The translations under genes were made by a program, and so were the position numbers. The notes below the pieces were generated by a model. The model made no database searches, was not told where the DNA came from, and saw only the letters and a list, made by a program, of their open reading frames with translations. This document shows, piece after piece, positions 43,488-63,002 of a stretch of DNA of 64,000 bases. This DNA is from Pseudomonadota bacterium (GTDB lineage Bacteria; Pseudomonadota; Gammaproteobacteria; Acidiferrobacterales; Acidiferrobacteraceae), in contig JAJYQN010000128.1 of NCBI GenBank assembly GCA_021794595.1, positions 62,001 through 126,000 of the forward strand, read 5' to 3'. Numbering within the stretch: position 1 is the stretch's first letter; each line of letters begins with the position of its first letter.

Positions 43488-45146
43488 TTGCTAGCTTGCC
43501 GTTTTATCCGGAGAAACCCGGCGGCCCCCGTGAAACCGAAAGCGTCTTTTCAGGCTCGCAACCGCGCCGACCGTCGCCGCCTGCGCGCGCTTATCGACGC
43601 CGGCGAGCAAGTCGAGGCGCATGGCCTCTTGCACCAAAAAGACCGGCTTGCCGAATGTTTGTCTGGCGGGCGGCGCGCCCATCCTTCTCCTGTCAGACCA
43701 GGGTCCCCGACTGCCGGCGGTTGGGATGCCATCCCGCGAGGTCGGACGCTCGCGCGCCCCCGATTACGTGTGCGGCGTCTCTATCGTGTGTTCACGGCCC
43801 TGGCCTGCTTGGGCCTCCCCGCTGTGGCCCTGGGCCGACTCTTATGCCGCTTGCATCCGTCCCCCGAGCCACCGAAGACGCTCACGGTATGGCTTGGCGT
43901 CAGCACAGGCCTTCTCCCCAAGCGTGCCCGTTATCGCGACCAGGGACGCTGCCCGGTCGTTCTGGGTCTGTCGGATTTGGGACAAAATCTCCTCGTCTTG
44001 GGTGGAATTGGCTCGGGCAAGACGACCTCTGTCATTCAGCCGGTCTTGTGGCAGTGTTTGCGCCAAGGCGTGGGCGGCTTGATCTTTGACATCAAGGGGG
44101 ACTTCGGGGCCGCCGCTATGGGCCTGGGACGCGCCGCCCAGCGCACCCTGACCTTGATCGGCCCTAAGCGCCGGGCCTTTAATCTCTTGCGTGGTCTAAC
44201 CCCCGAGGCCGCCGCCGGTTTCTTAAAGTCGGCGCTTTTACTGACCGGTTCCCCGAGCGATCCCTTCTGGATCGACACCGCGGTCGAGCTCTGCCGCAAT
44301 GCCCTAGGGGTGCTGTCTTTCCTCCCCGAGCACTATAGCTTGGCGGGCCTTTACGACTACCTCTTCCATGATGAGGCGCGCGAGCGCTGGGATCGGGAAC
44401 TCGCCGATGAGGCCGTGGGTTTGAGTCCCCAGGCGCTGCGCCTTTTACGCAGCTACCAGTCCTATCATGAGGGCGTGTTTACGCGCTTTGATGCTAAGGT
44501 GGTGGCGGGCGTCCTGGCGAGTGCCGCCCAGGTGCTGACCCCCTTTACTCACCCGGATCTGATCGACGCCTTTTGTCCTCCGGTCGATGCGCTGACCATA
44601 GACACCCTGGGTGCCGGCGACATCTTTCTCGTCGATCTCCCGCTGGCCGTGTGGGGCGTGGGCGCGAAGGTCATCTACACGTTTATCAAACTTCGGTTCT
44701 TTCAATACATGCAGAGGCGCCCGGCCTCGGAACGAACGCGCCCGGTCTTGTTTCTTTGCGATGAGTATCAGGAAATCGTGAGCGCCAACAAAGACGGCCT
44801 ATCCGACCTCAACTTCTGGGACAAGGGCCGCGCCTTCGGCACTCTCGGCGTGATATCCGCCCAGTCGATCGCAAGCTTTTATGCCGCGCTCGGCGATCGC
44901 GATCTCGCCGACACCTTGCTGCAAAATTTCCGTCAGAAGCTCTGTTTGCGCACCGACGATCTCCACACGATCCATTTTTTTGAGAGGGTATTGGGGCGTG
45001 CCGTCTACGACCCGCCGCGCGCCACGACCCTTGTCACCGCGCTTGTCGTCCGCAGACTCCATGGCCGTCAAGCGCTCGCGGTCTTGTCCCAAGGCGGGGA
45101 GGCAATAGAGGACGTGATCGACCTACCGACCGTGTTTGTGGATTAG
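43488..45146 (+). CDS. Type IV coupling protein-like ATPase (TraG/VirD4 family)
   Basis: 552 residues. One N-terminal hydrophobic segment (VFTALACLGLPAVALGRLL near 100-120), Walker A GGIGSGKTT at 172-180, FDIKGDFG, Walker B VLFLCDEYQE near 419-428 and the SAQSIASFY arginine-finger region. In conjugation such ATPases pump the relaxase-DNA complex to the secretion channel. No type IV secretion genes are nearby, so it would rely on one elsewhere. The start is uncertain: TTG 43488 or GTG 43530, neither with a good ribosome site. Codon use in the first 100 residues is unusually Arg/Ala-rich. Confidence 0.82.
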   Translation: MLACRFIRRNPAAPVKPKASFQARNRADRRRLRALIDAGEQVEAHGLLHQKDRLAECLSGGRRAHPSPVRPGSPTAGGWDAIPRGRTLARPRLRVRRLYRVFTALACLGLPAVALGRLLCRLHPSPEPPKTLTVWLGVSTGLLPKRARYRDQGRCPVVLGLSDLGQNLLVLGGIGSGKTTSVIQPVLWQCLRQGVGGLIFDIKGDFGAAAMGLGRAAQRTLTLIGPKRRAFNLLRGLTPEAAAGFLKSALLLTGSPSDPFWIDTAVELCRNALGVLSFLPEHYSLAGLYDYLFHDEARERWDRELADEAVGLSPQALRLLRSYQSYHEGVFTRFDAKVVAGVLASAAQVLTPFTHPDLIDAFCPPVDALTIDTLGAGDIFLVDLPLAVWGVGAKVIYTFIKLRFFQYMQRRPASERTRPVLFLCDEYQEIVSANKDGLSDLNFWDKGRAFGTLGVISAQSIASFYAALGDRDLADTLLQNFRQKLCLRTDDLHTIHFFERVLGRAVYDPPRATTLVTALVVRRLHGRQALAVLSQGGEAIEDVIDLPTVFVD

Positions 45147-48159: not shown

Positions 48160-49350
48160 CTACGCGCCTTTGTTTGGGTCTACGGCCTCGTGGCGCGGGG
48201 CGAGTGAGGCGCTCACGAGGCGCAGAATCATCGCTGCTTGGCGGGCGCCGTCTTGCACCACGGGGTCTGTGAGGAGTTTATAGAGCCCCTTGACCCCGCC
48301 CTCCGAGGATGGCTGGTCGGCGCTCGCGGTTCTCATGGCGGCCCATAGGGCCCCGATTCGTTGCCAGCCGGGCCCGTTTTCGGAAGGGGCTGCGATCCTG
48401 CCTACCGTTTCCTGCAAGGCCGCGCTTCCGCCGGCGGCCCGCCACACCTCGGTCAATGTTACAAGCCCGCCGCCGACGTCGCGCAGGACCGGGAAAAGCC
48501 CCATGCGCCGCCAAGCGAGCAAGAGCTCCACGATATCGCCCGCAAGTCCCCCGAGGTCTTGGTCCGTGAATGTCTGACTCGCGGCGACCCAGGCGCCCAC
48601 CGCCGCCTGTCCCGCCGGGCCCGCGAGAAAGGCCTCGGTGTGCCGGATCCATGCGGCGAGCTTGTGGGCCAAGGCGAGATCCTCGCGCACCGTATCAACG
48701 AGTGGACCCAAGGCCGCCACAAGCCCGGGACTGGTTGCGCTGATATGCCGGAGGCTTGCCGCAAGAGAGGGCAGATTGTCCGCCAAAAACCGTAAGGAAC
48801 CGCTTTCTGACAGGGCCTTTAAGGTCTGCGCGAGCTCTTGCCCGAGGGTCGCGAGATCCAGGCCTTCCGTGGCCGTCGTCGCGGTCACCCAGGCCTCGGA
48901 AAGCGCTTGGCCGACAGGGCCGGCCAAGAGCTCCTCGAGGGCGTGCAGTCGTGCGGCAAAACCCCGCAATACCTGGACGTCCCGCCCCAGGCCTTCGGCG
49001 CTTACCACCGCCTTTTGGATTGCGGCGGCGTCGAAAGGGACGGCATCTAAGGTGTTTTTCAGGGTGCGTGCGTTGTCGGCAATGGCGGCCCACAGGCCGG
49101 CATCGGACAGTGCCTCGAGCGCGCGTGAGACATCCTGGCCCAAGGTCTTCCCATCCTGTCCCTGCACGACGGCCGCGGCCTTCAGGACCCAGTCGCTGGC
49201 CGCCTGGCCCAAGGGTCCTTTTCCGGCCTCTTCCAGGACCATGATTCGGTCGGCAAGACGCGCTAAGGCCTGCCACTGAGCCGGGGTGAGGGGAGTGTGC
49301 GGCACCGACCCGACGCCGTGTGCGCCCCCCGTGGGGAGTGGTCCGCTCAT
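48160..49350 (-). CDS. DUF1641 protein with three internal repeats, SQR partner
   Basis: 396 residues, helical and Ala/Leu-rich. Three copies of a unit of about 73 residues start near 29, 131 and 231 (period about 100), each with GPxGQAxxxWV followed by LGQxxxxxLxAL and a hydrophobic helix. The C-terminus, GGVKGLYKLLTDPVVQDGARQ, is the DUF1641 signature. DUF1641 genes are often next to sulfide:quinone oxidoreductases or formate dehydrogenase-like genes, and the product is thought to be an accessory or anchoring subunit; no cofactor motif is visible. Its start is 3 nt after the SQR stop. Third gene of the SOR operon. Confidence 0.72.
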   Translation of the reverse strand: MSGPLPTGGAHGVGSVPHTPLTPAQWQALARLADRIMVLEEAGKGPLGQAASDWVLKAAAVVQGQDGKTLGQDVSRALEALSDAGLWAAIADNARTLKNTLDAVPFDAAAIQKAVVSAEGLGRDVQVLRGFAARLHALEELLAGPVGQALSEAWVTATTATEGLDLATLGQELAQTLKALSESGSLRFLADNLPSLAASLRHISATSPGLVAALGPLVDTVREDLALAHKLAAWIRHTEAFLAGPAGQAAVGAWVAASQTFTDQDLGGLAGDIVELLLAWRRMGLFPVLRDVGGGLVTLTEVWRAAGGSAALQETVGRIAAPSENGPGWQRIGALWAAMRTASADQPSSEGGVKGLYKLLTDPVVQDGARQAAMILRLVSASLAPRHEAVDPNKGA

Positions 49351-49353
49351 GAT

Positions 49354-50634
49354 TTAGGCGGCAAAGAGCCGCTCCGCCAAGAACTGGGCCGCGTCCAGGC
49401 CCCAGGGGGGAATCTTGCCTTGGGTGCGAAAGAAGAGGTCCTTGTACTGCATCTTAAGTAGGTAGGGTACGCGGCCCATTTTCAGGATCTGGGTGTCGCC
49501 GCCGAACCAGGAATTCGAACGAATGTAAAAGGCCTGTTTATCGCCCATGTCGCCTATGCAGTAGACCAGGGGTTTTAAGGGCTCGCCGGCGAACTCGGCG
49601 CTGACCCGTCCGAGATCCCGGGCGATTTGCCTTCCGACGATCTCGCTCTCTTGGTGCCCTATCGCCCCTAATTTTGGGACCGTCACCGCAGCCGCGTCAC
49701 CGCAGGCCAGCACCTCCGGATACTTGGGGTTGCGCATCAGCATATCGGTCACCACGAAGCCTTCTTCATCGCAAAGCGGGAGCCCTTTCATAAAGGCGTG
49801 CGGCACCCAGTCCGGAAGTAGGATCTTGAGCTCGGCCCAGAGCCCCTCACCGTTCGCAAAGCTCACGCCCTCGGCCGTGACCTCGGTGATATCGCCCACA
49901 TTATTACGATAGTGAAAGCCCATCTTGCTGGCGATCCCGAGCAAGGCGTTAACGACCTCCTCACCGGCGTCTTCTGCGATAAGGCGCCCAGGGGTGAATA
50001 CCGTGATCTTGTCGGGGCCGCCAAAGCCGTGATTTTTGAGCCAAGTCGCCATCGACATCATGATCTCAACCGGTGGTCCTTCGCAGGCGGCATCGGCCAT
50101 CGGAACGAGGTCCTTGACGGCCGTTCCCTGGTGGAAGCGGGCCGAGCCCACGGCGATGGGTCCGCCTTTATAACCGCCGTCGAACAAGGCCCGCCGGAGC
50201 TTGTTCGCATAATACGTGTCGGAGACCGCGTGCCCGTGTTCGGCAAAGCCCGCGATGCGGTCGTAGGCGAGGCGACAACCGAAGGCGACGACCAAATAAT
50301 CGTAGGTCATCGTCTCATATGCCGATCCCTCGCGTTCCTTGGGTGTAAATTCGACCGCCCGCGTATCGGGATTGATGCCGCGCACCTCGCCTTGGATAAA
50401 GTCCACGCGCGCCTCTTGCCAGGCCTTGTAGGTATCCATTCTGAGGCTCGCCGCCGGATCGCGGTTCTCGAAGACCTCTCCGGGGATATTCGGGATGAAT
50501 AAAAGATAAGGGTTGCGGTCTATGACCGTGATTTCGACCGCGTCGCCGGCGTATTCCCGGATTTTCTGGGCACTGGCGAGTCCCGCAAAGTTTCCGCCCA
50601 AGACCACCACTCTCGGTTTGCCGTTTGTCATCAT
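49354..50634 (-). CDS. sqr: Sulfide:quinone oxidoreductase
   Basis: 426-residue flavoprotein of the two-dinucleotide-binding-domain family. FAD motif VVVLGGNFAGLAS (9-21), VIDRNPYLLFIPNIPGEVF and the second FAD contact EVLACGDAAAV. Cysteines suited to the sulfide-oxidising redox centre are Cys184 (ADAACEGPP, matching the conserved mid-sequence active-site cysteine) and Cys359 (PLVYCIGDMGDKQ); Cys120, 288 and 311 are also present. It oxidises sulfide to sulfur or polysulfide at the cytoplasmic membrane and reduces quinone. 9 nt downstream of SOR, which produces sulfide. Distant family members are NADH dehydrogenases, but the context favours SQR. Confidence 0.85.
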   Translation of the reverse strand: MMTNGKPRVVVLGGNFAGLASAQKIREYAGDAVEITVIDRNPYLLFIPNIPGEVFENRDPAASLRMDTYKAWQEARVDFIQGEVRGINPDTRAVEFTPKEREGSAYETMTYDYLVVAFGCRLAYDRIAGFAEHGHAVSDTYYANKLRRALFDGGYKGGPIAVGSARFHQGTAVKDLVPMADAACEGPPVEIMMSMATWLKNHGFGGPDKITVFTPGRLIAEDAGEEVVNALLGIASKMGFHYRNNVGDITEVTAEGVSFANGEGLWAELKILLPDWVPHAFMKGLPLCDEEGFVVTDMLMRNPKYPEVLACGDAAAVTVPKLGAIGHQESEIVGRQIARDLGRVSAEFAGEPLKPLVYCIGDMGDKQAFYIRSNSWFGGDTQILKMGRVPYLLKMQYKDLFFRTQGKIPPWGLDAAQFLAERLFAA

Positions 50635-50643
50635 GAACGCCTC

Positions 50644-51615
50644 CTAGCGGACGAGATGATCCCGCCACGTGCCTTCCTCCATCATGGAGGCGAACAGCAT
50701 GTAGTAGGGACCGCGGTTGATGTGTGCTAGCACGCCTTGATCGTGGATCTTTCGCGCCTCGTAATTGACGAGTACCTTGCCTAGACCCTGGTGCGCCAAC
50801 TCCGGAGCCTCCCACTCCATATGGACAAAGTATTGCGCCGGGGTCGCGGCCGGAATTGGCGGGTGGTCGAGAGGCTTATCACCATAGTTCGTTCCGTACT
50901 TCGGCGGGTTGGCCCCAAGCGTTGCCTTGGTCATTCCCTGCGGGTCCAATTGAAACGACCCGATCGCCGACACCCCGATTTGCTTTAAAAGCATCCACCC
51001 CAACATGCCGGGCGCATGCGCCATGAGCCACGTCATGGTGTCTTTGACCCCCTGCTCGAAATCCGTCTCATGACCGTGCATGACGCTGTGATCACCAAGC
51101 GCTATGGTGCGGTTGGGCAAGGCGAGTTTTGGCACCGATTGTTGGGCGCCGGCGCGCTCCATCATGATCTGCGGGACATCCGTCATGCCAATCGATGGCG
51201 GCAGGTCGGAGGCCCGTATCTCGTAGAGCGGCTCCCAGGGCCCCTCGACCACCATGGCCAAGCAGTGCGAGCACAATTCGTAGATCGTGTCGAACTGCAG
51301 GTAGTGCATCTCTTCGTGGGATTTGGCGTCTTTCCAGACGGTGTATTGAAACATGCCGATCGGGTTCAGGGTCGCGCGCATGTCCAGGGCGCCACCCCCA
51401 TAACGCCCGGCCATCGGATGAATGCCGGTCTGAAGGAGTTGGTCGAACCCAAGAAAACCCGGATGGGTGGCGGTCGTGATACAGACCTTGGGCCCAACCT
51501 TGTGCATGGCCTCATAGCTTTCCGGACGATTGGCGATGCGTGCCATGTTGATCGCTATGATGGGGTTTGTGCCGTTCCCCTGGGCGGGGCCGCGAGGGGG
51601 TGGGCTATCGACCAT
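50644..51615 (-). CDS. sor: Sulfur oxygenase reductase
   Basis: 323 residues. Cytoplasmic non-haem iron enzyme that disproportionates elemental sulfur with oxygen to sulfite, thiosulfate and sulfide without external cofactors, as a hollow 24-mer. All six well-studied residues of the Acidianus enzyme are conserved with a constant offset of 14: Cys45 (VGPKVCITT), His100 and His104 (HEEMH), Cys115 and Cys118 (CSHC) and Glu128 (GPWEPLYEI). The extra 14 residues are a Pro/Gly-rich N-terminal extension. GGAGGATG precedes ATG 51615, and a TTAAGG/TAGGAT pair about 45 nt upstream on this strand is a weak promoter candidate. First gene of the operon with sqr and DUF1641. Confidence 0.95.
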   Translation of the reverse strand: MVDSPPPRGPAQGNGTNPIIAINMARIANRPESYEAMHKVGPKVCITTATHPGFLGFDQLLQTGIHPMAGRYGGGALDMRATLNPIGMFQYTVWKDAKSHEEMHYLQFDTIYELCSHCLAMVVEGPWEPLYEIRASDLPPSIGMTDVPQIMMERAGAQQSVPKLALPNRTIALGDHSVMHGHETDFEQGVKDTMTWLMAHAPGMLGWMLLKQIGVSAIGSFQLDPQGMTKATLGANPPKYGTNYGDKPLDHPPIPAATPAQYFVHMEWEAPELAHQGLGKVLVNYEARKIHDQGVLAHINRGPYYMLFASMMEEGTWRDHLVR

Positions 51616-51760
51616 GGCATCCTCCGTGGCTAAAGGTCTTATCCTAACGCGGCCCGGCCTCTCCTTAATCCGACCTAGGCCGGTGCCGGTCGCCGGGTTT
51701 TACGAGCCCGGAATTTGCCTCGCTTTTGGCCTACACTGAAAACAGGCGGTTTACGCCGGG

Positions 51761-52606
51761 ATGTGTCGCATGGCGATTCGCCGTTGGTTTGCCCTTAAGG
51801 CCATAGCTTGGCTCACGACCGAACGGCCAAGCAGTCCCATGCTCGAATCGCTTGCCGACCACGAGGCCTTGATGCGCATGGTTCGTCCGGGCGATGTCGT
51901 GCTGATGGAGGGCATGACGCGCGTGGGGGCCATGATCAAGACCATAGGCCAAAGCACATGGTCGCATGCGGCCTTGTGCGTGGGCCGCGGGGACGAGCTA
52001 TCGGACCTTGGTCACGACGACCTTTTGCCGGCCGCCGTTGGCCCCTGGCCGCAAGGACCGCTATTGTTGGAGGTCCTATTGGGTCAAGGTGCGGTACTCA
52101 AACCCTTGCGGGATTATGGGCACACGCATCTGCGCCTTTGTCGCCCACGCGGGCTCGCGCCCGCCGATCGGGCCGCCGTCGTGCGCTATGCCCTGGCGCG
52201 CATAGGCTATGGTTATGACCTACGCCAGCTGCTCGACCTCGCGCGCCTGACCTTGCCCTGGCACTTTGTTCCCCGACGTTTCCGCTCCGGCCTTTTTGCG
52301 CGCAGCGAAGGGCCCCATACCCGCACCGTTTGTTCGGCTTTGATCGCCGAGGCCTTTCAGTCGGTGGGCTTTCCGATTCTCCCGATGCTCGTTCGGCATG
52401 GCCACACGACCTTGTGGTATCGTCGCGACAGTCGTTTTTCACTTCCGAAGGATTTCGATATTTCGCCCTTTTTCGATATCATCAAAGTGACGCCCTTGGC
52501 CTACCATCACTACCGGTCGGTCGTGTGGGAGACCGAGGACGCGCCGTCCTCGGTCGAGGTGCCGAGGACGGCGGACCCTATCATCCCGGACCGCGGCTCG
52601 GGCTAG
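51761..52606 (+). CDS. YiiX-like permuted NlpC/P60 (papain-fold) hydrolase
   Basis: 281 residues. The circularly permuted papain-like family has its histidine before its cysteine: WSHAALCVG (His near 69) and TVCSALIAEAFQSVG (Cys near 190) fit. Members act as amidases, acyl hydrolases or lipid-modifying enzymes. No signal peptide is obvious, though the first helix (WFALKAIAWLT) is amphipathic. ATG 51761; ATG 51770 is an alternative. It is upstream of the beta-oxidation operon, separated by an inverted repeat and a promoter. A role in releasing fatty acids is possible but unproven. Confidence 0.78.
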   Translation: MCRMAIRRWFALKAIAWLTTERPSSPMLESLADHEALMRMVRPGDVVLMEGMTRVGAMIKTIGQSTWSHAALCVGRGDELSDLGHDDLLPAAVGPWPQGPLLLEVLLGQGAVLKPLRDYGHTHLRLCRPRGLAPADRAAVVRYALARIGYGYDLRQLLDLARLTLPWHFVPRRFRSGLFARSEGPHTRTVCSALIAEAFQSVGFPILPMLVRHGHTTLWYRRDSRFSLPKDFDISPFFDIIKVTPLAYHHYRSVVWETEDAPSSVEVPRTADPIIPDRGSG

Positions 52607-52687: not shown

Positions 52688-55600
52688 ATGCAGAAGAACC
52701 CCGAGGTTCTGATCATAGGCGGCGGTCCAGCGGGGATCGCCGCGGCCTTACGTTTGGCACGCGCCGGGGTTCGCACCTTGCTGCTGGAGGGCGCGGAATT
52801 CGTCGGGGCCGAGAACTGGTCGGGCGGGGTTTATCATGCCGAACCGCTTTTGCGGGACGATGTGTTAGGCACCGAGGCCTTTGCCAAGGCCCCCAAGGAG
52901 CGGCGCATCACGGCTCGCCAATTGCTCATTCATGATGGGGCGAACTGTGGCGGGTTCGAGGCGCGCGCGGTAGAGCATAACGACTACGGCGCGGCGTGGA
53001 CCGTACTGCGACCGAAGTTCGATCGCTATTTAGCTGCCTACGCCATTCGCTCTGGCGTGACTATTCTTCCCCGCACGGCCGTGACCGCGCTGCGTTATGG
53101 GCAAGGGCGGGTGGTCGGCGTGGAGACCGCGCGCGGATCGCTTTTGGCGCCGGTGGTGTTTTTGGCCGAGGGCGACGCCGGGCAGCTCTTGAGTCGGGCC
53201 GGCCTTGAGCGGGGCGGCGTCCATTACGCGCAGGGCATAAAGGCGGTGTTCGCGCTTCCGGCCTCGGTCATAGAGGAGCGATTCTCGCTCGCTCCTGGCG
53301 AAGGCTTGGCGCAGGAGTGGCTCTTGCGCAATGGGTCCTTTCAGGGGCGTTTAAAGCCATTAAACGCCACCGGCTTTCTCTACACCAATCGCGATAGCTT
53401 GTCGGTGGGCCTGGTGTTGCCGCTCGAACGCGTTGCCGACCACGGTCCGGTCGATCACCCACAACTCTTGAATCACTTCCTGCGCCTCCCCGAGGTAGCC
53501 ACCCTTTTGGAGGGGGCGCGCCAGATCGCCTATGGCGTAAAGGTTATTCGGTCGGGGGGTTTGAGCGAGGGGGCGAGTTGCGTCCATGACGGACTCGCCG
53601 TCGGCGGCGCCCTATTGGGGCTCGGGCAAGAGTTCCCCTATCCGAATTTCATGGGCCCGGCCGCCGCCACTGGGGTTGCGTTCGCAGACGCGGTCCTCGA
53701 ATTGCGCTCGCGCAAGGACTATTCCGCGGCGGCCTTGTCGGAGGCCTATGGCGGCCGTTTGCTGCGCGGCACCGATTACCAGAACGCCCAGTTCGCGCGT
53801 ACTTGGCCTCGGGCCTTGCACGAGACCTCGCTGATGTTCGAGCACTTGCCCGAACTTGTGGGGGCGCTGGGTTCGAGTCGGGCCACGCGTGCGCGGGCGT
53901 TTGCGCGGACCGCCTTGTCCCTGACTCGCGATGGCGCGACCTTGTCCGCGGCGGCGGCCGTACCGAGGACGCCCCGGACCACCGACACCCCACCGCTTGC
54001 CGTCCGTTGGCTCTATGCGCGCTCGGCCAGACTCGAGAATGTCGCAGTGGAGGGGGCGGCGTTTGCTTATCTCGCGCGCGCCATCGGCTATCTCTATGGG
54101 CGCGGCCTACCGCTCCTGGAGACCCGGGTCGCGGCGATTTATGCCCGGCCGTGGCGGGGGGCCGCGGCTTACGCCCTGGCGCGGAGCGCGCCTTTGGTTG
54201 TGGCTGGAGGAGCAGCGTTTTTGGGGGACCTTGTCGCGGTGGCGGCGCGCTCGCGCTCGGTCCTTGCGGACCACCCTTATTATCAGAGGGCACGGTTGTC
54301 GCGGGCGCAACTGTCCTGGGACCATGAGCCGCCTTACTCCCCCCTGACTTGGCTTGCGCCGCTAGGTCGCCTGCGCCCCGATGTGCGGCACTTAAGGGTC
54401 CCCTCCGATTTAGCGAGCGCCCAGGCCCAGCGCCTGCGCCGTGTATGTCCGGCCGAGGTCTACAGTCTCGGAAGTGCGGTGGCGGGCGCTGGGACCGTTC
54501 CGGAAAACTGTATCAAGTGCGAATCCTGCCGGCTGACGGTGCCGGGCATCGATTGGAATCGGCTGAGTAGCCATCGGTTCATCTACGAGTTGCCCGATGC
54601 CCGGCGCTTCGGTCTAGATGGGAGCGCCCAGAGCGAGATCGAACCCAGTTGCCCACCGGTGCTCGAAGACCCCGCCTTGCGGGAGATCTACGAACTCGTG
54701 AAGAGCCGCCCCGTGGCCCCCGGACCGCTCTGGCGACAGGCCCTGCGTTCGGCGCTTATGACCGCCATCGCAGACCCCGAGCGCGCCGTGGCGCTGTGCG
54801 ATCAAGGGGCTTGGGGAGGCCTGGAGGCGACTCTTTCCGGCCTATTGCCCTGGACCCGCACGCGGCCGGCGGCGCGCTCCCCAGAGCCCCGCTTACGCAA
54901 CCTGCTTGCGCGACTCTTTCCGGCTGCGCGGCTTGCCACCATGGCTGCGGGGTGGACTGCCGCCGATAGGCAGGACCTTGTGGAGTTTTTGCATCGCGGT
55001 GGCGAATCGCCCGAGGTCTTGCTCGCGGCCCTGGCTGAGCATGCGCCGGCACTGGGGTTCGTTGCCGCGCACCATCTCTTGGCCGAGGACCACCGCGGCC
55101 AGCGTTTGGCGAACCTCACGGCACTCGTGCACATCGAGTCCGACGGCCTGTCGGACTGGTTGCCGGATACGGGCGGAGTCTATTGGGGGAGACACGGAGC
55201 TCTCGACCTTAAAGCGACAACGGGCGCAGCCGGGCTCGATGTCGCGCGCCCGATCCGTGCGCGCGTGGCGGACCAGGATGGCGAGCCGTGGCACATAGGA
55301 CCCTTATTTGCCCGCTATTATATGGCCCTTATGGAAGGCTTCGGGCGCGCCTTGCTCGCGCGCGCCAGCGCCTACGCGCTTAGCCGCAAGCAGTTTGGCG
55401 AATCCTATCGGGACCGAGAAGGTCGGACTGCGATCATCAAGTTCGGGGCCGTCAAGCGCTTAGTGGCGCTCATCGAGTACAGCCTGACCCTGGCGCGTGC
55501 GATGTCGGCGGCCTGCGATCAGGATCCGCAGGCCGTAGTCGGCCTTCTCAAGGCGCGTTTTGGCGTGTCGCAGGACGGTGTCGCGTGGGTCGCGGGCCAG

Positions 55601-58600
55601 GTGTTTGGGGGTATTGCCTACTCCGAAGACGATATATTGGCCCCCCGTTACCGCGACGCGATGGTGTTCGCGCAATGGCCCGGGGCCGTGCCTTTGGGCA
55701 CCGACGTCCCCTGGGAGGCGACCCTTTGGCGTAAGGCCCTGCACCACGGTCCGGAGGCCTACTTTCTGCGCCACGGCCTTTTTATCGCGCCGCCCCCGGC
55801 TCTGCTGCCGCCCTTGAGGCACCGCCTACGCGGCCTCACGATGCCTGCGGCAACCCCCTTTCCTTACCAGAGCGGCAGCTTTCTGCTAGGCGACACCTTG
55901 AACCCGGATGTGGTTTTTGTGCCTGAGTACTTCTTGGCGGATCCGCGTTTGCGGCAGATGCGGGCCCAGGTCCTCAGGCTTTTGCGCAGCGGCTTTCGCG
56001 ACCCCGAGGGCGGCCCGTACGGCCGCTATATCGATCGGCTCCATGGCATGCCGCCGGCCGACATCGACCGCTTGCGCGTCTTCAAGGCCTTCGCCACGGT
56101 GATCCCTGAGGCCCTGGGGGGCAAGGGTCTTAGCAAGGCTGAATACGCGGTGCTGACGAGCCTGCTCATGGGTCGCGCCGACACCTCCGTGGGTCTTCTT
56201 GTCATGGCGAGCACGAGTATCGGCACGATGCCGGTCTTGCTGGCGTTGGACAAGGATCTTCCGCGACTCGGTGCCGAATTGGCGGCCTTTCCGGGGTCGG
56301 CCTTTGCCCGGCTCCAGGCCTTGTGCGTGCGTCTGCGGGGCCTTAGCGCGCGTCCGCGCGCCAGCGCTATCAAGGCCACGATCCGGGCCCTCGAACGGCT
56401 CTTCAAGGGCTTGTTTTTGGGTCACGGCTCGGCGCTCAAGTATCTGGCCCGGGATGTATTGCTCGATTTCCGCGATCTGGTGGCGGTCGCCCGGGCCCGC
56501 GACCTGGATGAATTGGACCTGAAGACTCAGGCCTTGGCTCGGGGCCTCATGCGCTTGTCCGAGGCCTTGGACGAGGAGCGGGCCATGCTTCCCGGCCGTG
56601 TGCTTGCCCATCAACATTTTTTAGCGTTTCTCGCCCACGGTCAGATCAGCGCCTTCGCCCTGACCGAGCCTAACGCCGGCTCGGACACCGGCGGCGTCAC
56701 TACGCGAGCGCGTCGTGTGAAGGCCCCTCTTACCCAAGATGCCCTCGGCCTCTGGCGCTTTAGCGTAGAAGGGGGTTCCCGCGTCTTGCTCGACGAACGG
56801 CGGCTCGATCTGAGTGGTCCGGTCGTGACCTACCAATTGTTGAACGAAGCGCGTGCGCGCCTCGACGATAGTGGCTGGGATAAGGAACGCCAGTGTGGCA
56901 AGCGCCGCCTAGTGCTCGATTCCGGGATGAGCTACGAGTACGACGATATCGGCATACCGACTGCGACCGACCACGGTTTTGTCTACGACCATTACCAGCT
57001 GTCCGGCGCCAAGATGTGGATCACCAATGGCTCGCTCGCCGATCGCTACTGCTTGTATGCCCAGACCGAGTGGGGCGAAACCGGCTTCATGGTCGAGCGT
57101 CGTTCCGAGGGCCTGCGCATCGGTCAAAACGAACGCAAGCTGGGCCAGCGGGCCTCGCCTACCAACGAATTGAGCCTGTCTTCGGTGCGGGTGTGCGTAA
57201 GTCACATCATCGGCTACCGAGGGCATGGCCAGGTGAGCGCGCTGGAGACCTTAAGCGTGGGCCGCGGCGGTCTAGTGGTCGGCTGTGGGAGCCTGCTTGA
57301 GCGTCTCCTCAAGGACTATGGTCCGCTTTTGGCAAAGGCCCCCGAGGCCTTGGCGCTTGCGCGTTATGAGTATGAGCGCATACGCACGCTCGGCGCCCGT
57401 CTCATGGGCCTCATGGACCGGGCCGATCTTACGGCCGGCGACTTTCGCATGGAGGCCGCGCTCTCCAAGTTCCTGGCCTCCGAAGGACTGCATCGCGTGC
57501 TCTTGGCGCTCGAATCGGCACGCGGGCCGATGGCGGCGGCGACTTGCGAGCTTATCGAGAAATGGCGCCGCGATGCCCGTATCCTCAATATCTATGAGGG
57601 CACCAACGAGATCCAACGGTTCCTGGTGTTAAAGGATGTGCCGGGGCTCTTTACGGCGATTGCGACGAAGAAGACGACTGGCAGCGAGGGTCTGGATCGG
57701 GCCTTGGGGGTCTTTGCCGATTTCCTGGCCCCCCGCCTCGAAGACCTGAAGACGCGGGTGGCCGTGGACGGCGATTGTGAAATCACCTGGTTCCCGGTGG
57801 TCGATTGGCTGGGCGAACTTTATGTGTGGGCGGCCTTGGTGGAACGGCGGCTCGCGCTTGAGGCCCAGTCCGTGGACTGTGATTATCTGAACACGCTTAC
57901 CGCCCTGGAGGCGATGGTCGAGCGCGCCACGGGGGCCCGTGCCCAGGCGGTGGCGGCGCTTTTCAAAGACGAACGGCTCTATGATGATGCGGTCCGCAGC
58001 CTCTGTGAGCGAGGGGCGACGCCGCTGTCCCCGCAGGACGGCGGTATCGAGGTCGGCTTCTCGGGAAGGATCGTCGTTCTGGTGCGTGGCGTGGCGGCGC
58101 AGTACGGTGCCGACGACGTGCGCCTGGACAATGAGGATCTCGCCGTTCTCGATCTGGCCCTAGAGGCGGCTGATGCGCACGCCGCGATCGAGATCATCGT
58201 AGTCACCGTCACCGAGGCCCCGTGTCCGGATCTGACCCAGCGGCTGCGCGCCGCCGGCGCGCGGGTGACGGCGTTCGTTAGCATGGGGTGGCCAGATGCA
58301 GCGCAGGTGGCCACCGCGCTCGCCGATTGGGAGCCCGATCTCGTGCTCGCGGGCCCCGGCGACCCGCTCTTTCTGCAAGCGCTGAGCGGGGCCTTAGGCG
58401 CCACTTATGTCGATCGCGTCACCGCCATCAAGGCCCGCGGCCGTCGGGGTTACGGGATTGTGCGCGCGGGCCGCTGCCGCCCCATAGCCGCGCAGCGCAA
58501 GCTCGTTATCAGTGCGGCCTTTAGTGCTACCGGGCGCAGCGATGAGTTTCCGGTAGCGGATTGGCTGAAGGTGTTAAAGGAGCCGACCACCGAGACCGTG

Positions 58601-59689
58601 GTAAGCGGCTATAAGGTGAGGCCCCACCGTAAAAACAGTGGCCCCGAGAAGGCGCCGGCACACATCGAAAGCCCAGAGGCCCTGGCCGATTGGCTGCGTA
58701 TCCAGGGGCGCGGCGTGGCTAAGCTCGGTGCGCGCATGGTTCCGGGAAAGGTCCGGGACCTGCCTCTGACTGTGGCCATCGTGGGGTCCGGGACCGGGGC
58801 CTTGGGGTCTCTTTGGGTCGCGCGCGCGTGGGACCGGGACGCGGGAGCACTCTGGCTTGCCGGGGCCGCGGATGATGTCCCCCCGGCCTCCGTTGAAGGC
58901 CCGGTCGTGCGTGTCGTGGGCCAAGCCGCGGTGATCCCCATGGCCCGTCATCTGGCCCCGTGGCTGAAGGGGAGTCCGCGCCTGGTCTTGCCTTATGACC
59001 GGGCGGATTTGGCGGCCGCGCTCTCCCACATCTTGGGCCGCCCCCTCTATTTGGGCGTGGCGGGACGGAGCGGGGATAGCCTCATTCTTGAGCGAGGCGA
59101 TTTGGCCTGGCTTACCGCCTGTCCTGAGACCGCGATCCTTGTCGCCACGGCCGAGGCTCCCGAATTACCGCAAGCCAAGACCTGTGCGGTGGATGATTGG
59201 ACGCCGCTTAGGGGGTCTCCGGGGACCTTGGCGCGGGCCTTGGCGCGCCAAGAGACCGATGGCATATCGGGCGCCGAGGTGATTTTGGATGTGGGCTTTG
59301 GGGCGGCCGACGCCACCTTTTTCGAGAGACGGATTTTACCGCTTCGCGAGCGACTCTCGGCTATGATGGGTTGTAAGGTCTTATTGGGAGCTACGCGCAA
59401 GGTTGTTCAGGAGAGTAAGCTCTTGTCCCTTGAGCATCAGATCGGTCAGACCGGGACCCATGTCGCGCCGCGCATTTTGCTGGCCGTAGGGGTGTCGGGG
59501 GCCCCGCAACACCTCGTCGGCATTGGCAGCGGTACGCAGGTGGTGGCGATCAATAAAGACCCGGAGGCGCCCATATTTACCGCCGATCGGGGCGCGCAGC
59601 CTGTCATTCGCTGCCTCGGGGATGCGCAGACGTGGGTGGAAGGGCTATTGGCGGCCATTCCGACATCAGGGATTGAGGAGGGGGTATGA
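52688..59689 (+). CDS. Giant fusion: ETF-quinone oxidoreductase, FixX-type ferredoxin, acyl-CoA dehydrogenases, ETF-beta, ETF-alpha
   Basis: One uninterrupted frame of 2333 residues. 1 to about 420: FixC/ETF-QO flavoprotein (GGGPAG at 11-16, GAENWSGGVYH). About 555-640: 4Fe-4S domain with Cys587, 608, 611 and 614 (CX2CX2C as in ETF-QO and FixX). About 665-1010: acyl-CoA-dehydrogenase-like segment with RKQFGESYRD and VFGGIAYSEDD but no catalytic Glu. About 1050-1780: complete acyl-CoA dehydrogenase (FALTEPNAGSDTGG from 1323, AKMWITNG from 1441, IYEGTNEIQRF with catalytic-position Glu1637). About 1785-1990: ETF-beta-like, AMP site and docking loop remodelled. About 2020-2325: ETF-alpha with intact FAD segment (IGQTGTHVAPR, INKDPEAPIF). 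It should carry electrons from acyl-CoA to quinone at the membrane. Overlaps thiolase by 4 nt. Confidence 0.92.
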   Translation: MQKNPEVLIIGGGPAGIAAALRLARAGVRTLLLEGAEFVGAENWSGGVYHAEPLLRDDVLGTEAFAKAPKERRITARQLLIHDGANCGGFEARAVEHNDYGAAWTVLRPKFDRYLAAYAIRSGVTILPRTAVTALRYGQGRVVGVETARGSLLAPVVFLAEGDAGQLLSRAGLERGGVHYAQGIKAVFALPASVIEERFSLAPGEGLAQEWLLRNGSFQGRLKPLNATGFLYTNRDSLSVGLVLPLERVADHGPVDHPQLLNHFLRLPEVATLLEGARQIAYGVKVIRSGGLSEGASCVHDGLAVGGALLGLGQEFPYPNFMGPAAATGVAFADAVLELRSRKDYSAAALSEAYGGRLLRGTDYQNAQFARTWPRALHETSLMFEHLPELVGALGSSRATRARAFARTALSLTRDGATLSAAAAVPRTPRTTDTPPLAVRWLYARSARLENVAVEGAAFAYLARAIGYLYGRGLPLLETRVAAIYARPWRGAAAYALARSAPLVVAGGAAFLGDLVAVAARSRSVLADHPYYQRARLSRAQLSWDHEPPYSPLTWLAPLGRLRPDVRHLRVPSDLASAQAQRLRRVCPAEVYSLGSAVAGAGTVPENCIKCESCRLTVPGIDWNRLSSHRFIYELPDARRFGLDGSAQSEIEPSCPPVLEDPALREIYELVKSRPVAPGPLWRQALRSALMTAIADPERAVALCDQGAWGGLEATLSGLLPWTRTRPAARSPEPRLRNLLARLFPAARLATMAAGWTAADRQDLVEFLHRGGESPEVLLAALAEHAPALGFVAAHHLLAEDHRGQRLANLTALVHIESDGLSDWLPDTGGVYWGRHGALDLKATTGAAGLDVARPIRARVADQDGEPWHIGPLFARYYMALMEGFGRALLARASAYALSRKQFGESYRDREGRTAIIKFGAVKRLVALIEYSLTLARAMSAACDQDPQAVVGLLKARFGVSQDGVAWVAGQVFGGIAYSEDDILAPRYRDAMVFAQWPGAVPLGTDVPWEATLWRKALHHGPEAYFLRHGLFIAPPPALLPPLRHRLRGLTMPAATPFPYQSGSFLLGDTLNPDVVFVPEYFLADPRLRQMRAQVLRLLRSGFRDPEGGPYGRYIDRLHGMPPADIDRLRVFKAFATVIPEALGGKGLSKAEYAVLTSLLMGRADTSVGLLVMASTSIGTMPVLLALDKDLPRLGAELAAFPGSAFARLQALCVRLRGLSARPRASAIKATIRALERLFKGLFLGHGSALKYLARDVLLDFRDLVAVARARDLDELDLKTQALARGLMRLSEALDEERAMLPGRVLAHQHFLAFLAHGQISAFALTEPNAGSDTGGVTTRARRVKAPLTQDALGLWRFSVEGGSRVLLDERRLDLSGPVVTYQLLNEARARLDDSGWDKERQCGKRRLVLDSGMSYEYDDIGIPTATDHGFVYDHYQLSGAKMWITNGSLADRYCLYAQTEWGETGFMVERRSEGLRIGQNERKLGQRASPTNELSLSSVRVCVSHIIGYRGHGQVSALETLSVGRGGLVVGCGSLLERLLKDYGPLLAKAPEALALARYEYERIRTLGARLMGLMDRADLTAGDFRMEAALSKFLASEGLHRVLLALESARGPMAAATCELIEKWRRDARILNIYEGTNEIQRFLVLKDVPGLFTAIATKKTTGSEGLDRALGVFADFLAPRLEDLKTRVAVDGDCEITWFPVVDWLGELYVWAALVERRLALEAQSVDCDYLNTLTALEAMVERATGARAQAVAALFKDERLYDDAVRSLCERGATPLSPQDGGIEVGFSGRIVVLVRGVAAQYGADDVRLDNEDLAVLDLALEAADAHAAIEIIVVTVTEAPCPDLTQRLRAAGARVTAFVSMGWPDAAQVATALADWEPDLVLAGPGDPLFLQALSGALGATYVDRVTAIKARGRRGYGIVRAGRCRPIAAQRKLVISAAFSATGRSDEFPVADWLKVLKEPTTETVVSGYKVRPHRKNSGPEKAPAHIESPEALADWLRIQGRGVAKLGARMVPGKVRDLPLTVAIVGSGTGALGSLWVARAWDRDAGALWLAGAADDVPPASVEGPVVRVVGQAAVIPMARHLAPWLKGSPRLVLPYDRADLAAALSHILGRPLYLGVAGRSGDSLILERGDLAWLTACPETAILVATAEAPELPQAKTCAVDDWTPLRGSPGTLARALARQETDGISGAEVILDVGFGAADATFFERRILPLRERLSAMMGCKVLLGATRKVVQESKLLSLEHQIGQTGTHVAPRILLAVGVSGAPQHLVGIGSGTQVVAINKDPEAPIFTADRGAQPVIRCLGDAQTWVEGLLAAIPTSGIEEGV

Positions 59690-60978: not shown

Positions 60979-63002
60979 CGGTGAACAGTTGGTCGTTATC
61001 CGAGAGTGACGGTATCGCGGAACTCGTTCTCGACGTCCCCGGACGTAGCCACAATGTCTTGTCGCGCGAGGTCTTGGCAGAGCTCGATCAAGTCCTGGCG
61101 ACCATCGAGGGGCGACCGTTGCACGGTCTCATCATTCGCTCGGCGAAGCCGCGGAGCTTTATCGCGGGCGCCGATGTCCATGAGTTTCGACGCATTCTCG
61201 ATGCCGCGCGGGCCGCGGAACTGACCCGCGCCGGGCAATTGGTTCTCCGACGATTGAACCTCCTGCCCTATCCTACGCTGGCCTTGATCCAAGGGCCGTG
61301 TCTTGGTGGTGGGCTTGAATTGGCGCTCGCTTGTAGCTATCGGATCGCGTCCGATAGCGAGCGCACGATTCTCGGCTTACCTGAGGTCAAGTTAGGCATC
61401 CATCCGGGCTTTGGCGGGACGGTGCGGCTGCCGGCCTTGATAGGCCCTTTGCCCGCCTTATCGCTGATGTTGAGTGGGCGCACGATTGCCGCGCGACAAG
61501 CCCGCAAACTGGGGCTTGTCGACGAGTGTGTTCCAGAACGGCACCTACTGGCCGCGGCCCGCGCCAGGCTTAAGCAGGTACCGCCTAAGGGTCGTCCGCC
61601 TTGGCATCAGGCCTGGCTTGCTGCCCCCTGGTTACGGCCGTATGTGGGCGCGTATATGCGCCGACAATTGCAGGCCCGGGTCGATTGCGGCCATTACCCG
61701 GCGCCCTGTCGGCTCTTGGGACTTTGGGCCCGCCAAGGGTCCCTCGAGGCCGAGGCCTTGTCTTGCGCGGAACTTGTGGTCACTCCCGCCAGCCGCCATC
61801 TGGTGCGCCTCTTCGAGTTGTCTGAGGAGTTGAAGCGTTCAGCACGCACCGGCAGTGCCTCCCCGGTCCGTCACATCCACGTCATAGGGGCCGGGGTGAT
61901 GGGCGCCGACATCGCGGCGTGGGCGGCCTATAAGGGATTTTCGGTAAGCCTACAGGATCGGGAACCCAAGGCCCTGGGGCTTGCGGTCAAGCGCGCCCAT
62001 GCGCTTTTCGCCGACAAACTGCGCGGACGCTCAGCCCAGGCGGCGCGCGATCGGCTGTTTGCCGATCTGAAGGGCGACGGCTTGGGCGGCGCGGATCTCG
62101 TCATAGAAGCGATTATCGAGGATCGCGACGCGAAGCGCGGCCTCTTGGCCGAGGTCGAGCGCCGAGTGTCCGAGCAAACCGTCATCGCGACCAACACCTC
62201 GAGCATCCCCTTGGACGACTTGGCCGCCGATTTGCGCTTACCGGGACGGTTGGTCGGCCTGCATTTCTTTAACCCCGTCGCGAAGATGCAGTTAATCGAG
62301 ATTATAGCGGGGACCAGCACGGCAGACACCGCCCTGGCGCGGGCCCGGAGCTTTGCGGTGGCCCTCGATCGTTTGCCGATCGATGTGCAAAGTGCCCCGG
62401 GCTTTCTTGTGAATAGGGCCCTTATGCCCTATCTGCTGGAGGCCGTAGTCTTGGCCGAAGAGGGCGTGCCGCTTGCGGATATCGATCAGGCGGCGGTGGC
62501 CTTCGGGATGCCTATGGGCCCGATCGCCCTTGCCGACACCGTGGGTCTCGACATTTGTTTATCGGTCGCCAAGACTTTGAGCGCGGCCTTGGGGCTACCG
62601 GTACCGAATCTTCTTGCAAGTAAGGTAAGCGCCGGCGAATTGGGCAAGAAGTCCGGACGCGGCTTTTACGTCTACCCGATCAAGTCGCCATTTTTTACGC
62701 CCAAGCGGCCGCCGCCCGATCCGGTGATTTCTGAGCGCCTTATCCTACGGCTCTTAAACGAGGCCGTGCGGTGCCTGCGCTGCGGGGTCGTGCCCGATGC
62801 CGATATCGTCGATATCGGCTTAGTCTATGGAACCGGCTTCGCCCCTTTTCGTGGAGGACCCTTGGGCTATGCCGAGACCTTGGGCGCATCCGAGATCAAA
62901 AGCCGCTTGACGGAGTTGAGCGCGCGCTTTGGCGAGCGCTTTCTTCCGGATGAGTCCTGGTCTCAAGAAAATCTCTTCGCGCGCCGGGTGCTCGGACCAT
63001 GA
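60975..63002 (+). CDS. Bifunctional enoyl-CoA hydratase / 3-hydroxyacyl-CoA dehydrogenase (FadB/FadJ type)
   Basis: 675 residues. The N-terminal crotonase domain has SFIAGADVHEF, the oxyanion-hole segment GPCLGGGLELALAC and the second catalytic Glu in LGLPEVKLGIHPG. The dehydrogenase domain has HVIGAGVMGADIAAWAAYKG for NAD and VGLHFFNPVAKMQLIEI with catalytic His and Glu, then the C-terminal dimerisation repeats. Carries out hydration and oxidation steps. The length is slightly shorter than E. coli FadB (729). ATG 60975 overlaps the thiolase stop (ATGA). Confidence 0.94.
   Translation: MTVNSWSLSESDGIAELVLDVPGRSHNVLSREVLAELDQVLATIEGRPLHGLIIRSAKPRSFIAGADVHEFRRILDAARAAELTRAGQLVLRRLNLLPYPTLALIQGPCLGGGLELALACSYRIASDSERTILGLPEVKLGIHPGFGGTVRLPALIGPLPALSLMLSGRTIAARQARKLGLVDECVPERHLLAAARARLKQVPPKGRPPWHQAWLAAPWLRPYVGAYMRRQLQARVDCGHYPAPCRLLGLWARQGSLEAEALSCAELVVTPASRHLVRLFELSEELKRSARTGSASPVRHIHVIGAGVMGADIAAWAAYKGFSVSLQDREPKALGLAVKRAHALFADKLRGRSAQAARDRLFADLKGDGLGGADLVIEAIIEDRDAKRGLLAEVERRVSEQTVIATNTSSIPLDDLAADLRLPGRLVGLHFFNPVAKMQLIEIIAGTSTADTALARARSFAVALDRLPIDVQSAPGFLVNRALMPYLLEAVVLAEEGVPLADIDQAAVAFGMPMGPIALADTVGLDICLSVAKTLSAALGLPVPNLLASKVSAGELGKKSGRGFYVYPIKSPFFTPKRPPPDPVISERLILRLLNEAVRCLRCGVVPDADIVDIGLVYGTGFAPFRGGPLGYAETLGASEIKSRLTELSARFGERFLPDESWSQENLFARRVLGP

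Follow-up and report, generated by a model that had tools for sequence, protein, structure and literature searches.

The sulfide released by sulfur oxygenase reductase (SOR) has been assigned to a sulfide:quinone oxidoreductase (SQR) in Acidithiobacillus caldus MTH-04, in which the corresponding genes form a sor-sqr cluster (ACAL_1435-1436) (PMC3440390, PMC6335251). The same coupling has been described in the Sulfolobaceae, and a strain with sor, tqo, and sqr was reported (PMC11323534). Proteins of the DUF1641 family are known from other settings. In ForCE1 of Bacillus subtilis, ForC1 depends on the cofactor-less DUF1641 subunit ForE1 (PDB 8rqz) to bind and reduce menaquinone (PMC8808070), and in Ignicoccus hospitalis a DUF1641 protein was increased 10-fold together with a neighbouring FAD oxidoreductase, increased 5-fold (PMC3149612). 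Here we describe a three-gene block, sor-sqr-DUF1641, in a 64,000-nucleotide stretch of contig JAJYQN010000128.1 (assembly GCA_021794595.1, forward-strand positions 62,001 to 126,000) from an acidophilic bacterium of the Acidiferrobacteraceae. This whole stretch is referred to as the window. The main idea of sulfide recycling between SOR and SQR is not new, since it was published for A. caldus and the Sulfolobaceae. The pairing of DUF1641 with SQR was not found in the open-access papers searched, in which DUF1641 is mentioned by nine and COG2427 by one, with no paper in the combined search naming sulfide quinone reductase as well. The block is probably best explained as one unit for the cytoplasmic oxidation of elemental sulfur with energy recovery, in which the third protein would dock SQR.

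All three genes are on the minus strand. The first, sor (50644..51615), encodes a SOR of 323 aa whose N terminus is slightly extended with respect to the Acidianus ambivalens numbering. It is followed after 9 nt (50635..50643), where a ribosome-binding-like AGGAGG overlaps the sor stop codon, by sqr (49354..50634), encoding a 426-aa SQR from the bacterial clade that is sister to type V (SqrE). After a further 3 nt (49351..49353) comes the third gene (48160..49350), encoding a 396-aa divergent, apparently internally duplicated DUF1641-family protein with a C-terminal GGVKGLYKLLTDPVVQDG motif, a proposed membrane- or quinone-coupling subunit of SQR. These coordinates, the shared strand, and both spacings are as given in the initial annotation. 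The arrangement resembles that of A. caldus MTH-04, where sor adjoins an annotated sqr and a "hyp" gene is drawn in the published region, but the window genes are separated by only the 9 and 3 nt given above and the third gene is recognised as DUF1641-type. No minus-strand terminator-like site was detected in a terminator scan, and from the gene layout it is highly likely that the three genes form one transcript. A promoter would be expected in the 145-nt gap to the divergent neighbour of sor (51616..51760); none was found there in a sigma-70 scan. The neighbour itself (51761-52606, plus strand) gave a weak C92 amidase match of 26.5 bits (cut-off 27), and a gene like it adjoins sor elsewhere only in the nearest relative (L022). 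Purifying selection was found on all three genes of the block, with dN/dS ranging from 0.04 to 0.53 overall (SOR, 0.04-0.30; SQR, 0.05-0.09; third gene, 0.29-0.53). From these values it was deduced that all three are real genes, of which the third is evolving fastest.

The identity of the first protein was clear. The SOR domain PF07682 was matched over its full length (positions 2-300 of 300; E 1.7e-131, 438 bits), and NCBIfam NF047630 was matched with 278 bits, short of the 400 required by its equivalog cut-off. The closest solved relative was 6qpa (E 6e-150), with 68% identity over the aligned region compared to 40% for an archaeal SOR. The initial annotation had placed six active-site residues at a constant offset of 14 from the archaeal enzyme, and all six are present, C45, H100, H104, C115, C118, and E128 corresponding to C31, H86, H90, C101, C104, and E114 of A. 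ambivalens. The transfer from thermophilic archaea for which a phylogeny had been suggested was not supported as a recent event. In a SOR tree sampled without Sulfobacillus-type SORs, the bacterial and archaeal SORs formed separate clades, and a recent archaeal origin was rejected on this basis. The SORs of the window's genus cluster in this tree with sequences from Thioalkalivibrio, Thiotrichales, Smithella, and Desulfobacca, all of them unlinked to sqr. The Thioalkalivibrio/Smithella-type sequences are their closest relatives beyond the genus.

For the second protein, the only Pfam match was to the general Pyr_redox_2 domain, and its assignment was made from the solved relatives and the redox residues. 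The best solved relative was 3h8i (E 3e-50), deposited as "NADH oxidase", which we take to be the A. ambivalens SQR and in which the cysteines at 129, 178, and 350 agree. The type I SQR of Acidithiobacillus ferrooxidans matched at about 1e-15 and type II NADH dehydrogenase (NDH-2) at about 1e-4. By score, type V was favoured over type I (174 bits for 3h8i against 61 bits) in a comparison that did not cover types III, IV, and VI in full. C184 (in ACEGPPVE) and C359 (in YCIGDMG) of the window SQR correspond to C178 and C350 of A. ambivalens, and these two redox cysteines next to FAD were invariant in every clade sequence covering them. An alternative is that the flavoprotein is an NDH-2 or another disulfide oxidoreductase rather than an SQR. 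It could be argued from the unspecific Pfam match, from the presence of NDH-2 chains among the PDB matches, and from a DUF1641 match that points to an NDH-2 partner. However, the SQR structures score far better, the redox cysteines are those of SQR, and the second nucleotide-binding GxGxxG place reads PIAVGSARFHQG, so that the NADH-binding motif is absent. This alternative is disfavoured and is hardly credible; NADH dehydrogenase activity had been named initially as an observation that would overturn the proposal, and at the level of sequence the check came out on the side of SQR. The predicted structure of the protein (pLDDT 45) was of too low a quality for fold searching. Taking both proteins together, we regard the enzymatic activities of SOR and SQR as very likely those assigned.

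The window SQR departs from type V in one residue. Ser138 occupies the position of C129 in A. ambivalens, and because the third cysteine of type V is thus replaced by serine, the protein was placed in a sister clade of type V rather than in type V proper. In the tree, each of the 33 bacterial sequences has Ser or Thr at this position, whereas 3h8i and the seven archaeal sequences have Cys; a long branch separates the bacterial clade from archaeal type V. Since SOR-linked and unlinked sequences are alike in this respect, the change was deduced to characterise the bacterial clade rather than linkage to SOR. In the SQR of A. ferrooxidans, C128 is tied to the release of the polysulfur product, with C160 and C356 performing the redox work (PMC6335251). 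Given the change from Cys to Ser or Thr, the bacterial clade may release its product in a different way from the archaeal enzyme. The type V system of A. ambivalens (3h8i/3h8l) remains the best solved likeness, and it extends to gene order, as described below.

The third protein was recognised through its relatives. The genes following sqr in Acidithiobacillus, Halothiobacillus, and others encode homologues of it (phmmer, 2.5e-15 and 7e-11; BLASTP, 7e-12), several of which pass PF07849, the Pfam model of DUF1641. The DUF1641 label of the initial annotation therefore holds indirectly, by homology to these SQR-adjacent proteins, and not by the standard Pfam model, which gives no match. Across the alignment, a C-terminal motif, GG..GL..LL.D..VQ, is nearly invariant. 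Family lengths range from about 200 to 400 aa, and the window protein looks internally duplicated, since two of its stretches align to overlapping parts of a shorter relative and the alignment contains an extra block peculiar to this genus. Against the PDB, the DUF profile matched YjlC (9snk_B, 3e-6) and an "NDH-2 membrane coupling protein" (9pxk_E, 5.5e-6), both matches covering the C-terminal GL..LL.DP..Q motif, and the YjlC stretch printed in the match itself passes PF07849. An archaeal DUF1641 member gave a weak match to ForE1 (7e-4). Taken without the motif and the gene order, the profile E-values would carry little weight.

In the entries containing YjlC, the NDH-2 chain, YjlD, is also among the PDB matches of the window SQR; 9pxk and 9snk thus combine a flavoprotein of the SQR/NDH-2 fold with a DUF1641 protein in one entry. 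YjlD differs in being an NADH dehydrogenase and not a sulfide enzyme, and YjlC has 140-176 aa in these entries compared to the 396 aa of the duplicated window protein. ForCE provides the likeness of a DUF1641 subunit required for quinone reduction, but its partner is a molybdenum enzyme rather than a flavoprotein. From homology and gene order, and by analogy with these systems, we lean toward the third protein being a membrane- or quinone-coupling or docking partner of this SQR.

Conservation of the block was analyzed in the genus of the window organism. SOR was present in 10 of 14 genomes, the window's own counted, and all 10 contained an SQR of this kind at >820 bits; three of the four SOR-lacking genomes had no such SQR and the fourth had a fragment at a contig end. 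The order sor-sqr-third gene was identical in the nine other loci of the genus, a conservation far beyond chance. The sor-sqr gap measures 9-10 nt in eight of these nine loci, and six of them have the 3-nt gap ahead of the third gene. Apparent gene overlaps in two loci (L017 and L021) arose because the longest start was chosen mechanically. The flanks are conserved as well; one contains a methyltransferase and, mostly, an AsmA-like gene, and the other a giant fusion of electron-transfer flavoprotein (ETF) and acyl-CoA dehydrogenase. In the window, this fusion is a single frame of 2333 aa (52688-59689, plus strand) with ETF:quinone-oxidoreductase-like FAD, acyl-CoA dehydrogenase, and ETF-alpha domains by Pfam, and thiolase and 3-hydroxyacyl-CoA dehydrogenase genes lie downstream. 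A homologous fusion occurs in all nine other SOR-containing loci of the genus (seven complete or nearly so, one in two pieces, and one cut by a contig end). Another genus of the family (L023, approximately 1690-2719) retains only a sor-sqr remnant in the same order, which contains stops and frame breaks and is apparently a decaying copy. Elsewhere in the window, a TTG-start frame (43488-45146, plus strand) has a type IV secretion coupling-protein domain (TrwB_AAD_bind), which suggests that a conjugative or mobile region lies close by.

A scan of named genomes yielded 33 SOR loci. Outside the genus, sor and this SQR gene are adjacent in Halothiobacillus, several Acidithiobacillus, a Rhodanobacteraceae metagenome-assembled genome (MAG), Thiomonas, Sulfuriferula, and two further MAGs. 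Three arrangements were observed, sor-sqr-DUF, sqr-DUF-sor, and a divergent one in a single Acidithiobacillales genome. When all frames within 6 kb of sor were clustered, sqr and the DUF gene were by far the most recurrent neighbours of sor across proteobacterial genera. Among 31 Acidithiobacillales genomes, this SQR was found in 12 of 12 with SOR and in 8 of 19 without (Fisher p 0.0014, uncorrected for kinship), and the DUF gene followed sqr in all seven SOR-less genomes inspected. Likewise, in the seven related archaeal SOR-containing genomes examined, a DUF1641 gene comes directly after the SQR gene while sor is located elsewhere; four of these archaeal proteins were submitted to Pfam and all four were confirmed as DUF1641. 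Since the pair occurs without SOR in Acidithiobacillales and away from sor in archaea, sqr-DUF1641 was deduced to be the older unit. The three-gene unit proposed in the initial annotation stands as a conserved block but is more aptly viewed as a conserved sqr-DUF1641 pair with sor added, and the pair is best read as an old combination of SQR with its membrane- or quinone-coupling partner that sor joined in some lineages. Mapped on the SOR tree, linkage switches state at least seven times. Placing all linked SORs in one clade was rejected by the approximately unbiased (AU) test (p 0.0013), and a tree leaving the Thioalkalivibrio/Smithella group outside the linked clade was not (p 0.35); because only one of the two topologies is rejected, gains and losses of linkage are inseparable. 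In Acidithiobacillus sulfurivorans (L044, G453), SOR and the SQR of this clade are each present in two copies, with one pair linked, and a secreted-looking 524-aa protein encoded at L035:6936-8510 (minus strand) has relatives near sor in L038, L039, and the archaeal L143.

This distribution bears on the direction in which the pathway runs. The SQR-DUF1641 pair might instead serve environmental or general sulfide, with the adjoining sor burning the sulfur made by SQR (H2S to S to sulfite). This would suit the presence of SQR without SOR in 8 of the 31 Acidithiobacillales genomes, the DUF gene again following in all seven inspected, and its separation from sor in archaea. On the other hand, SOR never occurs without this SQR in the genus or in Acidithiobacillales, and both directions are parts of one cycle. 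We consider this reading a serious possibility but the less probable one. Under the preferred explanation, a unit for sulfur oxidation with energy recovery, SOR would convert 4 S + O2 + 4 H2O to 2 H2S + 2 HSO3- + 2 H+ without conserving energy. SQR would then carry out H2S + Q -> S + QH2, passing two electrons per sulfide to quinone and returning sulfur to the pool. The net reaction would be 2 S + O2 + 4 H2O + 2 Q -> 2 HSO3- + 2 H+ + 2 QH2, so that roughly one quinol is gained for each sulfur atom taken to sulfite. The DUF1641 protein would most likely attach SQR to the membrane or position it at its quinone, a role assigned to YjlC for NDH-2 by its database label and performed by ForE1 for a formate dehydrogenase. 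No N-terminal signal was seen by eye in SOR or SQR, which fits a shared cytoplasmic side. The identities of the genes and their conserved linkage give good support to the recycling of sulfide between the two enzymes, as initially proposed, although as an idea this recycling had already been published for A. caldus.

Several observations weigh against this explanation. PF07849 gave nothing for the third protein even at E 10, the predicted model of this protein is poor (pLDDT 47) and unsuited to fold searching, and the DUF profile also matches designed pentatricopeptide repeat (PPR) proteins at similar E-values in many sub-significant pieces. A PPR relationship was itself set aside, as these were many weak repeat matches. 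Furthermore, 11 of 27 SOR-containing bacterial genomes outside the genus lack this SQR and 5 of 27 have it elsewhere, from which it follows that the linkage is not obligatory. The divergences of SOR and SQR correlate at 0.71 overall, driven by the genus, and outside it the linked loci are uncorrelated (Spearman 0.03, 12 loci). The missing Pfam match, together with rapid evolution (identity of 38% with some members of the genus), would also suit a third gene that is unrelated helical filler, its DUF1641 motif arising by chance or remote resemblance. This is highly improbable, as it is opposed by the phmmer and BLASTP matches to genuine DUF1641 proteins encoded at the equivalent place, by the nearly invariant motif, and by a post-sqr position that is constant from archaea to bacteria. 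A stronger form of association was also considered, in which SOR, SQR, and the DUF1641 protein form one membrane complex channelling sulfur and sulfide. The elongated, duplicated protein would in that case tether SQR, and thereby the SOR shell, such that sulfide and sulfur are exchanged without release; such tethering is doubtful. The very tight gene order kept in the genus and the linkage of sor in more than one gene order would be consistent with a complex. However, no feature of the SOR sequence indicates docking, many SORs are unlinked, and SOR and SQR do not diverge in parallel outside the genus, so that a complex of all three is unlikely.

With the preferred explanation of a sulfur-oxidizing unit in which SQR is docked by its DUF1641 partner, the useful part of the finding is that DUF1641 can be given a proposed role in sulfur metabolism that is concrete and open to testing. 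This small family, which has ties to NDH-2 and to a quinone-linked formate dehydrogenase, has its genes immediately behind those of one SQR clade in archaea and bacteria alike.

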